Below, piece by piece: positions 55,187-60,090 of a DNA stretch of 64,000 bases. Numbering within the stretch: position 1 is the first letter of the stretch; every line of letters starts with the position of its first letter. The stretch spans positions 216,183 to 280,182 of the forward strand of contig DYJA01000001.1 of assembly GCA_020723345.1 (NCBI GenBank). The letters run 5' to 3'. The position numbers and the translations under genes are program-made. Under the pieces are notes generated by a model that saw nothing but the letters and a program-made list of their open reading frames with translations, did no database searches and had not been told where the DNA came from. The DNA comes from Candidatus Aquidulcis sp. (GTDB lineage: Bacteria; Chloroflexota; Anaerolineae; UBA4142).

Positions 55187-55244
55187 CAAAAAATGTTCCC
55201 GCGCCAAGCGTCAGCGCGAGTCGCTTACCACCTGGCGCGGGAAC
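55187..55244 (-). terminator. terminator of the DGR operon, 137 nt after the template repeat
   Basis: 12-bp perfect stem (GTTCCCGCGCCA 55195-55206 / TGGCGCGGGAAC 55233-55244) with an inner AGCG/CGCT stem, followed on the minus strand by ATTTTTTG. It bounds the 3' end of the TR RNA. The spacer between TR and terminator holds further hairpins (GGCAGAC-cgga-GTCTGCC at 55257-55274; AGGACAAGAT/ATCTTGTCT at 55321-55342). Confidence 0.75.
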
Positions 55245-55380
55245 GGTGGGTTATTGGGCAGACCGGAGTCTGCCGGGAATAGACTGGACCAATTTTCAAA
55301 ACCTCGGCGGTCATCTCCGTAGGACAAGATTCCATCTTGTCTAGACGTCGATAACGCGCAGTGCCGGTCGACTTGGAAAA

Positions 55381-55502
55381 TTGTGGGAGAACACAACCCG
55401 CACACCCACATTGTTGTTGAAGTTGTCAGGGTTGTTCCTGTTGCGGTACGCCGCGCGCGCGTGGTCTTGATTGTTGTTCCACGACCCGCCGCGCAACACG
55501 CG
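55381..55502 (-). repeat. DGR template repeat (TR)
   Basis: 122 bp, aligned without gaps to the VR at 57091-57212. 102 positions are identical. 19 of the 20 differences are at adenines of the coding-sense TR (30 adenines in all), one is at a thymine (55448). Read in the target frame the TR gives RVLRGGSW-NNNQ-D-HARAAYRNRNNPDNFNNN-VGVRVV: Asn AAC/AAT codons mark the mutable sites. The adenine-poor 26 bp at 55385-55410 are identical in both copies and are the likely initiation-of-mutagenic-homing segment. Confidence 0.97.
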
Positions 55503-55539
55503 TCTCCATCAGTCTAGCCCCAAACCGACCTGACGGGTC

Positions 55540-57052: not shown

Positions 57053-57074
57053 ACCCCCCACAGAAAAACAGAAT

Positions 57075-60020
57075 TCAGAACCCAGAACCTTTGGGGGAGA
57101 ACACAACCCGCACACCCACATCGCCGCTGAAGGAGTCAGGGGAGTCCCTGTAGCGGACCGCCGCGCGCGCGTGGACTCGACCGTCGAGCCACGACCCGCC
57201 GCGCAACACGCGAAGCGCGTCAGATTTTTCATTCTCGCGTCCATCGTCAGCGCGATAAGGGTACGGCTTGTAAATTGAGTGGCACCATTCCCACACATTG
57301 CCTGCCAGATCGAATGCGCCGCAGTGTGACGCGCCTTCAAGGTACTGACCCACCGCCGTGGTGTGTCCAATCTCGCTTTCAGAGGTGTTCGCGCGATTCG
57401 CGTCAAACTGATTTCCCCAAGGGTACGCGTTTTCCGCTTTGCCGCGCGCGGCGGCTTCCCATTCCGCTTCGGTCGGCAAACGCGCCACAAATTTTCGATT
57501 TTCGATTGCCGATTTAAGATTGGCATCTGCGGCTCCAATTTCCAATCTCCAATCTCCAATCCCAAAGGGACTTTCAGTCTCTAATCTCTCCGTGAGCCAC
57601 GCGCAGAACGCCATTGCCTCGAACCACGTTATACCCACAATCGGATGATTGTCAAGATTCCAGCGGCGGTCATTCCACCAGTTCGGTTGCGCGCGTTCTT
57701 TGCGTCCTTCGACCCAATTACGATAATCCTCGCGGTACTTTTTGTCAATTTGCGACAGGTCGGGCGTGTACTTGCCGTGTCGCCAATCCCAACCCTTGGG
57801 TGTCCAATAATCTTTGTTTTCGTATCCGCGCGCGTCGACGAAGAGTTTGTACTGCGCGTTCGTCACCGGATACTTGCCGATCCAAAAATCGTTCAATCGA
57901 ACAAGGTGGCGTGGATGTTCATCGGAGTCGCCTTCACCTTCGCGACTGCCGATCCAGTACTCGCCGCCCGGCACCGGCACGACGACGGAGAAGCGCGCGC
58001 TCACATCCGCGCGCGGATCGCCCAGGCGTCCCAGCAGTTCACCCGCGAGTGCGCGCGTCTCTTTCGCCGGGAGTTGCGCGTTTGTCATCGGCGCGAGCAG
58101 TTTTTGTTTCACGTCGTCGACGATGGCGGGATCGAGGTACGGATCGCGCAGTTCCGCCAGACAGGACGCGACGAGGAGCGCGGCTTCGGGCTCCGGGCGT
58201 TCGAGCGCGCGGCAGAGGAAATCGCTCTGACGGCCTGAACGCGCGGGAAACGATGCCACCATCAGGCGCAATGTCTCTCCCCAGCCGGGCTGAGCCACCA
58301 GACCGAGCGCGGTAATCACCCCTTCCGATTCCAGACTGACCAAGTAGCACGCGGCGAGGTACTCTTGAAAAGTGCGGTGGTGGGCAAACCGATAGATTCC
58401 GGTCTCGCCTTCCTCGATGATGTTGCACCGGTTTTTCGCCCATTCGAGAAAGTCTTCGATTCTCTTTTGAGCCGTGTCCGCATCAGACAAACGCGAGCGG
58501 CGAATGATTTCTTTTGCCCATTCCGATTTGGGCGCCTCGTTCAAACCGGCTTGCAGCAGCCAGAATGCTGCGGGGGACAACAAGTCACACCGGTCTTGCA
58601 GGCGGCTGGGCACACCGGCGGGCGCGAGTTCGCTGTCGGTGCGGCGACCTTGTGCGCCCGGGCGTGAACGATCCCATTCGCCTAGCAGAAGAAAAGTACA
58701 TTTTTGATACAGTTCAGCCCGATTCTCCGGCAATTCGTAGCGGTGGTGCAGCATCGCAGTCAGTGTCAACAACAAGGGAGTTTCCGTCAAGGCGCGCACT
58801 TGGTCTTTGAGCGCGATGGCCTGCAAGAGTGATTTGCTTTTGCTTTCTGCTTGCCGCGCGCCTTCGGGAGTCAGTTGGTCATTCCGGCGGAACACTTCAT
58901 CATACCACGCGTACACAAACGCGCGAATCTGCTCTGGATCCAGCGTTTCAATTTCAACTTTTTCAAAACGGTTCAACACCGCATGTTCGCGATACGCTTC
59001 CGGACGCGAGGCGACGACGTACCGATTGGGATGTTCTTTGTCGTGGTCATGCTCGCTGACAAACGACTCCACCGCCGCGATGATACTGGGACGCCATTCC
59101 TCTTTGACTTCGTCCAACCCATCAAGGAAAATCAAACAGCGCCCCTGGGCAAGCCATCCCTCAAAGCAAGCGGCATTCAGGTTATACCGTTTGAAATCAT
59201 TTTCCAAAAACTGTAACAAGGCATGTCCTTCCGAGCGCGTGGTTTTGTCTTTTTCCGCCAAGTCTTGCCAAAAGCGCGCGAATTCGCTCAATGGAAAATA
59301 GATCGGTACCGGTAAAGGGTCGAACGATATCTTTAGGAGGTCTTTGATCAGCGCCGGTTTGTTCTGAAGCCAAGCTTCCGTCAGAACGACTGCAACATGT
59401 TTAAGAAAGGTAGATTTACCGGAGCCCGCTCGCCCTACGACGACAAGGCGAGGCGAACGCGCGAGCCATTCAGGCAATTCTGGCGCGCGTGTCGCGCGTT
59501 CACCGATCATCGCAGTGGGCGTTTCTTTAGATCGCTGCTTCTCGTCGGCAAGCGCGCCGTGCGCGCGCAAGGGGATGTAAACTTTATGCAGGCGAACCTG
59601 GAGCGCATAATCGTTTTCGTTCAGCGATTTCAGATCCAAGAAGATGTATTTGTCTCTAAAATCCTGAAGATATTCTCGCAACCGTTTGTCACGGCTCAAC
59701 CGATCCCGCCGAATTTTGAATTGGTCAATGATCCATTGCTCAACGATCTTGAATCCGCCGCTGGCAATCGCTCGCGCCAGCCCACTCATCAAAGCAACGA
59801 CAATCGCGAGAATTATCGCGCCGATGGCGATCAGCGTACCGTAAGTTTGGACAAGCGCGTTCCAATAATTGGTCGCGTCGCTCATCGGTTTTGGCAAGAG
59901 TGAAGGCGTGGGGGAAGGCGTGGGCGAAGACGGCGGCGTGGGGTTTTGCGCGAGTACAAGCCCCACGCTAGTCGCGAACAGAAAAACGAACAGCAGAACG
60001 AGCAGGGAGATTTTTTTCAT
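57075..60020 (-). CDS. DGR target: membrane-anchored NACHT NTPase with variable FGE/C-type-lectin-like domain
   Basis: 981 residues, GAGGAG RBS. A signal-like segment (about 4-24), Ser/Thr/Pro linker, TM helix (about 62-80), then a basic stretch (KIRRDRLSRDKR) that puts the rest in the cytoplasm. NACHT domain: P-loop GRAGSGKS (196-203), Walker B LIFLDGLDE (296-304). A helical region follows, then from about 690 a formylglycine-generating-enzyme-like domain ('VPGGEYWIGSREGEG', 'LRGGSW'). Residues about 937-977 are the VR; 14 residues differ from the TR translation. About 30 residues near 810-845 come from an intergenic-type repeat inserted in frame. Proposed role: intracellular recognition receptor. 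Confidence 0.95.
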   Translation of the reverse strand: MKKISLLVLLFVFLFATSVGLVLAQNPTPPSSPTPSPTPSLLPKPMSDATNYWNALVQTYGTLIAIGAIILAIVVALMSGLARAIASGGFKIVEQWIIDQFKIRRDRLSRDKRLREYLQDFRDKYIFLDLKSLNENDYALQVRLHKVYIPLRAHGALADEKQRSKETPTAMIGERATRAPELPEWLARSPRLVVVGRAGSGKSTFLKHVAVVLTEAWLQNKPALIKDLLKISFDPLPVPIYFPLSEFARFWQDLAEKDKTTRSEGHALLQFLENDFKRYNLNAACFEGWLAQGRCLIFLDGLDEVKEEWRPSIIAAVESFVSEHDHDKEHPNRYVVASRPEAYREHAVLNRFEKVEIETLDPEQIRAFVYAWYDEVFRRNDQLTPEGARQAESKSKSLLQAIALKDQVRALTETPLLLTLTAMLHHRYELPENRAELYQKCTFLLLGEWDRSRPGAQGRRTDSELAPAGVPSRLQDRCDLLSPAAFWLLQAGLNEAPKSEWAKEIIRRSRLSDADTAQKRIEDFLEWAKNRCNIIEEGETGIYRFAHHRTFQEYLAACYLVSLESEGVITALGLVAQPGWGETLRLMVASFPARSGRQSDFLCRALERPEPEAALLVASCLAELRDPYLDPAIVDDVKQKLLAPMTNAQLPAKETRALAGELLGRLGDPRADVSARFSVVVPVPGGEYWIGSREGEGDSDEHPRHLVRLNDFWIGKYPVTNAQYKLFVDARGYENKDYWTPKGWDWRHGKYTPDLSQIDKKYREDYRNWVEGRKERAQPNWWNDRRWNLDNHPIVGITWFEAMAFCAWLTERLETESPFGIGDWRLEIGAADANLKSAIENRKFVARLPTEAEWEAAARGKAENAYPWGNQFDANRANTSESEIGHTTAVGQYLEGASHCGAFDLAGNVWEWCHSIYKPYPYRADDGRENEKSDALRVLRGGSWLDGRVHARAAVRYRDSPDSFSGDVGVRVVFSPKGSGF
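57091..57212 (-). repeat. DGR variable repeat (VR) at the 3' end of the target gene
   Basis: 122 bp, homologous to the TR at offset 1,710. In coding sense, TR codons AAC AAC AAT CAA GAC became L-D-G-R-V codons and the NRNN..N..NNN block became Y-R-D-S..S..S-G-D. Non-adenine positions are nearly all conserved (91 of 92). Confidence 0.97.
57486..57590 (-). repeat. dispersed-repeat insertion inside the target coding sequence
   Basis: 'ccaatttccaatctccaatc' and 'ttcgattttcgattgccgat' tracts, characteristic of intergenic repeats elsewhere in the window (23325, 53896), here in frame and encoding about 30 residues (…FGIGDWRLEIG…SAIENRKF) between the 'CAWLTERL' and 'RLPTEAEWE' motifs of the FGE-like domain. 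Confidence 0.7.
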
Positions 60021-60061
60021 AGCGCGCTCCTCGTCGAGTATGGCGTGCCCGTGCGAGGAAA

Positions 60062-60090
60062 ATTATAACAGGTTCGGGAAGGCGTGTCAA
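60062..60090 (-). promoter_or_regulatory. consensus sigma70 promoter of the DGR operon
   Basis: Minus strand TTGACA (60090-60085), 17 bp, TATAAT (60067-60062): exact consensus. Transcription starts near 60055, 35 bp before ATG 60020. Confidence 0.9.

Follow-up and report, generated by a model that had tools for sequence, protein, structure and literature searches.

What does the template of a cellular diversity-generating retroelement (DGR) serve, and into what kind of RNA does it run? The question is raised by a locus in a 64,000-nucleotide (nt) stretch of Candidatus Aquidulcis sp. (Chloroflexota; assembly GCA_020723345.1, contig DYJA01000001.1, positions 216,183 to 280,182), here called the window and numbered from its first base. 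The locus was confirmed as a complete DGR on the minus strand, with the order target, reverse transcriptase (RT), avd and template repeat (TR). The explanation that we hold with good confidence is that this one TR matches, at nearly all positions but its adenines, the 3′ ends of two genes, one for a NACHT-FGE protein beside it and one for a TIR-FGE protein on another contig, and that it runs into a conserved RNA predicted to fold, to recruit RT-Avd and to prime mutagenic cDNA.

All parts listed by the initial annotation, namely the promoter, the target gene with a variable repeat (VR) at its 3′ end, the RT motifs, the Avd-like gene and the TR, are present on the minus strand (Table 1), and its reading as a DGR with a NACHT-NTPase target was borne out by the adenine pattern of TR and VR, the NACHT and FGE domains, the RT match and the Avd profile. 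The TR has 30 adenines among its 122 nt, and 19 of them are mismatched in the local repeat VR1; the 92 remaining positions contain a single mismatch, which makes 20 in all. RTs of the DGR clade carry the motif [IVL]GxxxSQ, found here as IGNLTSQ, and the assignment was made from this motif together with comparison to solved chains and families. The best chain was 8ub7 ("Reverse transcriptase," E 9.6e-49), which we take to be the RT of the BPP-1 DGR, followed by a group II intron RT (4.9e-21). The accessory protein Avd was recognized by NF033474 (E 1e-25, score 90.1 against a cut-off of 80) and by phrog_3206 (E 1.2e-23).

A search of the whole assembly with the TR, as the initial annotation had proposed, turned up a second and remote target. 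The assembly comprises 6.34 Mb in 132 contigs and is 95.5% complete; besides VR1, the TR matched all 122 positions of G000:C107:28722-28843 (G, C and L mark our handles for genomes, contigs and loci, G000 being the genome of the window). This repeat, VR2, forms the 3′ end of a gene with TIR_2 (E 6.2e-26) and FGE domains, and none of the four matches to the window RT in the genome (C66, two on C116, and C9) lies on C107. TR and VR2 differ at 19 positions, 18 of which are TR adenines, while VR1 and VR2 agree at all 92 non-A positions and at 10 of the 30 adenine positions. Beyond the stop codon, the VR1 and VR2 genes share a stem-loop, CTGGGGGGC-loop-GCCCCCCAG. Because the VR2 differences fall on TR adenines and the same stem-loop follows, one TR very probably serves both the NACHT and the TIR receptor, as judged from these sequence comparisons. 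If VR2 were instead a drifted domain duplication and no trans target of this TR, the near-identity of the two genes past the stop codon would be accounted for: from the 3′ part of the VR through the stem-loop, 98 bases show 95% identity, which means that a block must once have been copied. The coding DNA upstream of the VRs is only 67-70% identical, however, and drift would not pick adenines; given differences so confined, drift is quite improbable, and we retain VR2 as a target of the window TR.

The stem-loop behind VR1 lies at 57028-57052 and, by analogy with BPP-1, would be a target-side recognition element. In the reconstituted BPP-1 DGR, deletion of the inverted repeat behind the target strongly impaired the system (PMC12875486; this paper, PMC8867640 and PMC10907252 are cited throughout for the accessible part of their text). 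Of 55 TR-bearing loci, the window included and the sample as described below, 28 have a best hairpin within 110 nt behind the VR that no more than 1 of 60 mononucleotide shuffles could match.

On the template side, the 196 nt behind the TR (55185-55380) fold with a z-score of −5.06, and a pattern recurs behind the TRs of relatives: helix P1, formed by the TR 3′ end and a stretch downstream; P2, lying within P1; CUGUUCC; hairpin P5; AAAUA; and GC-rich hairpin P4. At the window locus, the TR 3′ end pairs with a stretch 84 nt downstream. In a 20-sequence alignment, whose seeds were picked for having a P4-like hairpin, 87.7% of cells were paired, compared with 38.6-47.6% when the partner was slid by 1-3 columns and 69.5% after shuffling, and 27 of the 30 pairs showed changes on both sides. 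P1 and P2, which had no role in the choice of seeds, gave 84.9% by themselves (44.3-50.9% slid, 66.5% shuffled). Complementarity between TR end and P1 is locus-specific: across 47 loci the observed mean was reached by 0 of 5000 permutations, with only 20 of the 47 single loci beating 90% of the others in the pairing of the TR end with its own strand. A model-fitted alignment (A5; 84 rows, a few of them antisense or weak) reached 95.0% paired cells, a figure that leans towards the model. On the folding and alignment models, a covarying RNA domain starts at the TR 3′ end, and the hairpin initially annotated as a terminator forms its final helix. An E-value search of window positions 54800-60200 against Rfam gave a single chance-level match (plus strand, elsewhere in the region, E 0.35), and 10 related loci searched at gathering scores gave no family.

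The reach of this RNA was followed with R1, a covariance model of its 3′ half only (P5 plus P4; 19 seeds). Genomes of the same class (n = 396) were searched with the window RT, and 81 were positive at E 1e-60. Eighty RT matches were taken, best-scoring first (left out were G135:C301, G056:C324, G379:C2, G378:C348 and the weaker rest); together with the window, L010, L011 and L019 from the same genome, and L026 and L034, they make up 86 loci, L020 having been dropped as the same record as L146. An adenine test yielded a TR/VR pair in 55 of the 86; in a control of the finder the TR base was A in 56 of 87 loci, C in 1, G in 17 and T in 10, and single pairs may be false. R1 matched 72 of the 86 loci (E up to 0.02) and 53 of the 67 outside training. 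Its match lay 49-236 nt (median, 76) behind the TR on the same strand in 47 of the 55 TR-bearing loci, or 29 of 37 outside training. As for the remaining eight, L034, L139, L175, L196, L201 and L202 had no match, the match of L191 was on the opposite strand, and that of L195 was 2236 nt away.

Position and strand of the element were compared with those of the neighboring genes. Where R1 matched within 300 nt of the TR, the RT gene lay upstream in 34 of the 47 loci and downstream in 13. The match was on the strand opposite RT in five loci, and avd was likewise opposite RT in four of these five; the element thus follows avd-TR. Gene order was VR-RT-avd-TR in 35 of the 55 loci with a TR, VR-avd-TR-RT in 11, and other in 9. 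The order of the window locus had been called less common, and the reverse is true of these relatives, in a sample that favors the RTs closest to that of the window and is biased accordingly.

R1 also led to templates with no RT in the stretch examined. Among 199 genomes of the class, 43 had a match, and 31 of these 43 were RT-positive genomes (overall, 81 of 396 were RT-positive). Twenty matches away from a listed RT, hand-picked from 73, were inspected by eye: 12 lie behind a TR or TR remnant, 1 at the edge of a contig ahead of an RT, 2 behind RT fragments, and 3 (L217, L227, L229) behind the coding end of an FGE gene, where the frames extend beyond the start of the element by 168, 47 and 38 nt. 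The last two of the 20 were L222, with its match 250 nt behind an FGE frame, and L230, with nothing adjoining. At L217, L227 and L229 the 5′ part of the RNA element overlaps the ends of the FGE frames (1150, 178 and 1018 aa), and the repeat of L227 is A-rich like a TR yet in frame, as if template and target were the same.

Across the phylum, 13 of 301 genomes had an R1 match at E 0.001. Seven of these were outside the class, and in six of the seven an A-rich TR stood directly upstream; none was seen at L249. A further 49 loci (633 kb) gave 5 R1 matches at E up to 1, three of them at E 0.067-0.66. The two best were L087, behind a DGR TR, and L041, behind a VR-bearing gene, both in the Hydrogenedentota isolate UR.bin34. 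In the first 100 nt, the VR-bearing gene of L041 departs from the TR of L087 mostly at adenines, with 22 A differences and 3 others (regions L041:8847-9156 and L087:10481-10821), and it has its own copy of the spacer-type RNA behind it. An RT search of viral contigs returned 5 distant loci.

These distributions bear on whether P4 (55195-55244) is an ordinary intrinsic terminator whose likeness behind other TRs is due to chance or GC bias. The stem of the window copy directly precedes ATTTTTT, and a terminator scan lists a stem within P4 (the scan gave 11 such sites, and shuffles averaged 7.2). However, a T-run of at least 4 within 12 nt of the element was found in only 9 of 47 copies (7 of 34 with RT before TR, 2 of 13 with TR before RT), the position of the element is unchanged in the 13 of 47 loci whose RT gene lies downstream, P1 and P2 covary without P4, and the two best of the few matches in the other 633 kb stood behind a DGR TR and a VR-bearing gene. 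We therefore consider an ordinary terminator highly improbable and P4 part of the conserved RNA. Nor does the hairpin come right after the TR, as had been annotated, 136 nt lying between them. The terminator assignment keeps some validity in that T6 follows and P4 may also terminate transcription in the window copy; it fails in that the hairpin belongs, as the final helix, to a larger conserved RNA.

A role for the domain is suggested by Bordetella phage BPP-1 (NC_005357), whose DGR resembles the one in the window in RT family, Avd and adenine-specific TR/VR differences and, according to the accessible text of PMC12875486, also in a folded spacer behind the TR and a stem-loop behind the VR. 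There, the folded spacer recruits bRT-Avd, and cDNA synthesis within the TR 3′ end is primed by an adenine internal to the spacer (PMC12875486, same part); a review, as far as accessible, gives the Bordetella DGR about 200 nt of trailing RNA with a predicted conserved structure (PMC8867640). With the same place and a pairing to the TR end, the domain in the window is most likely, by this analogy, a spacer-type RNA that would recruit RT-Avd and prime cDNA. In BPP-1 itself, the best helix between TR end and spacer ends at Sp 54, two bases before Sp A56, presumably the primer position, and 583 of 1000 shuffles do as well. BPP-1 has the order mtd-avd-TR-brt where the window has target-RT-avd-TR. 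The window DGR also differs from BPP-1 in its FGE-type target in a cellular genome, in its remote second target, and in that R1 is blind to the BPP-1 spacer.

The mechanism we propose builds on direct observations: the parts are there, both VRs depart from the TR in the adenine-specific way, one stem-loop follows each of them, and across relatives the RNA domain covaries and has a consistent position. From there we infer the following steps. A single transcript from the consensus promoter would carry target, RT, avd and TR-RNA. By joining the TR 3′ end to the region that directly follows P2, P1 would place the start of cDNA beside the template, and RT-Avd would copy the TR with errors at adenines. 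The stem-loop would mark the targets, where the cDNA would then take the place of VR1 (in cis) and of VR2 (in trans). Variable lectin-type domains could in this way give new ligand specificities to the NACHT and TIR proteins, which would most likely be sensors of invaders inside the cell.

The repeats also bear on whether the system is still at work. After 26 adenine-free positions identical in all three, the TR reads CCCACAA and both VRs read CCCCCAA; this difference, a candidate for that between the initiation of mutagenic homing sites IMH and IMH*, sits at an adenine itself, and mutagenesis could account for it. Position 54 is T in the TR and G in both VRs, a non-adenine difference common to the two targets; barring a mixed-strain assembly, the latest rewriting of either VR at this position thus predates the change in the TR. 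A relic, with parts intact and activity lost, would fit this position, but the target, RT and avd frames are open, VR1 differs from VR2, the promoter is a full consensus, and T54 could also come from a mixed-strain assembly; on balance we think a relic rather unlikely. In a check for near-identical targets from other samples, in which the best 120 matches were listed per search, the closest full-length relatives among the matches listed had 64% identity to the NACHT target and 70% to the TIR target.

The pairing of receptor types recurs within the genome. Two genes match TR3 (C116:26103-26228): a TIR-FGE gene on C102, where 1 of 96 non-A and 21 of 30 A positions differ, and a DUF4062-NACHT-FGE gene at the end of C100, where the counts are 2 of 96 and 14 of 30. 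The match of TR2 (C116:1494-1615) is another DUF4062-NACHT-FGE gene, located at the end of C128, with 5 of 91 and 22 of 31 such positions differing. Thus, two of the three TRs searched genome-wide have one NACHT and one TIR target each. From gene order and contig ends, we infer that the ends of C100 and C128 adjoin C116, in which case those targets would be local. A fourth DGR, L019 (G000:C9:1541-1814), has an apparently truncated TR and has kept the RNA element. At G000:C62:4095-4266 (L236), a further FGE gene, NACHT-like by eye, ends in a VR-like sequence and carries a portion of the block that the VR1 and VR2 genes share downstream; it was assigned to none of the TRs found.

At its widest, our reading is that Chloroflexota cellular DGRs and at least one Hydrogenedentota DGR have a conserved RNA as the third component around which they are built. 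This covarying spacer RNA would be fastened to the TR by P1, would accompany avd-TR irrespective of where the RT gene lies and on which strand, and could serve to trace orphan templates. Template RNAs in the window genome would each tie a NACHT to a TIR receptor, diversifying two immune-like arms in step. We put the chances of this whole at about even. Several observations weigh against our main explanation. R1 found no match in 14 of the 86 class loci, and the four weakest matches counted have E values of 0.0026-0.02. Among the RT-bearing loci in the set from other phyla only L087 matched, with none at L022, L076, L092 and five IMG/VR loci (L027, of the same set, ends before a TR could follow). 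Against the BPP-1 spacer, the best R1 hit in the TR-RT gap had −1.8 bits (E 9.1), and with filters off the best on seven further DGR loci (a Fischerella plasmid, the phage loci BalMu-1 and ARM81mr, and four of the same IMG/VR loci) was E 0.18; as R1 has no significant match in BPP-1, we claim no homology to its spacer. Owing to the choice of seeds, covariation in P4 is partly built in, and the count of double-changed P1/P2 pairs was equalled by 15 of 500 shuffles. The shared T54G fits rare or past activity, and the putative sensor role is drawn from domain names and published analogy.

On our main explanation, one RNA would vary two different sensor proteins. As far as the literature could be read, detailed work on a DGR template RNA comes from a single phage. 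A covarying structure found across a phylum supplies a testable consensus for template selection and priming by cellular DGRs, a search tool (R1) for templates lacking a nearby RT, and a guide for experiments. A template shared by NACHT and TIR genes also makes the proposed "antigen sensor" role of DGR targets testable via two genes in one population. No family-level description of the spacer-type RNA was found in Rfam or the literature searched, though conservation of the spacer may have been described before.

NACHT and TIR targets and targets in trans are already known from Thiohalocapsa PB-PSB1 (PMC10907252, accessible part). Compared with that DGR and others of clade 5 as covered there, the host here is a Chloroflexota, and the genome differs in having two TRs that each match one NACHT and one TIR gene; for clade 5 DGRs, the accessible text of PMC10907252 was found to describe no RNA structure behind the TR. 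The NACHT target is like bacterial NACHT/Avs defence NTPases in being a STAND-type NTPase with a sensor in C-terminal position (PMC10907252, same part), and unlike them in that this sensor is an FGE domain with a VR and that the protein has no PADLOC family match, none of the PADLOC defence models matching it. Its N terminus, judged by eye, is hydrophobic and signal peptide-like and is followed by a membrane helix-like stretch, an arrangement that would keep NACHT and VR cytoplasmic. The FGE part resembles solved FGE enzymes and the Treponema denticola variable protein TvpA (2y3c, E 5e-11), alike in fold (FGE/C-type lectin). We take the FGE-type domain of TvpA to carry a DGR VR as well, and to our knowledge TvpA has no NACHT or TIR domain. 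The coordinates of all features are collected in Table 1; a promoter scan found 5 promoter-like sites in 5.15 kb, compared with a shuffle mean of 1.8.

Table 1. Features of the DGR locus, in window coordinates
Feature	Position	Strand	Remarks
Sigma-70-type consensus promoter, TTGACA-N17-TATAAT	60062..60090	-	12/12 matches; consensus match only
Target gene, 981 aa	57075..60020	-	NACHT NTPase with C-terminal FGE/C-type-lectin-fold domain containing VR1
NACHT domain (target residues 192-373)	58902..59447	-	E 9.6e-7
FGE-sulfatase domain (target residues 680-973)	57102..57983	-	E 1.1e-55
VR1, variable repeat, C-terminal end of target	57091..57212	-	91/92 non-A positions identical to TR
Stem-loop downstream of VR1	57028..57052	-	same hairpin behind VR2
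DGR reverse transcriptase, 367 aa	55862..56965	-	GLPIGNLTSQ and YVDD motifs; chain 8ub7, E 9.6e-49
avd, 118 aa	55540..55896	-	start overlaps RT end
TR, template repeat, 122 nt	55381..55502	-	adenine-specific match to VR1
Spacer-type RNA domain (P1, P2, P5, P4)	55195..55383	-	folding z-score and alignment; R1 match 55196-55288
P1 5′ strand, CAATTTTC	55376..55383	-	overlaps TR 3′ end
P2 stem region	55302..55367	-	
P1 3′ strand, GAAAATTG	55290..55297	-	likely cDNA priming region, by analogy only
P5 hairpin	55257..55274	-	
P4 hairpin	55195..55244	-	terminator stem of the initial annotation
A + T6 run behind P4 (ATTTTTT)	55188..55194	-	

Two further reading frames were also seen in the window. A divergent neighbor at 60178-63852 encodes a BTAD/AAA/TPR regulator of 1224 aa, and on the minus strand at 42089-53104 stands an open reading frame of 3671 aa with many similar repeats, as judged by eye, which is perhaps a surface protein.

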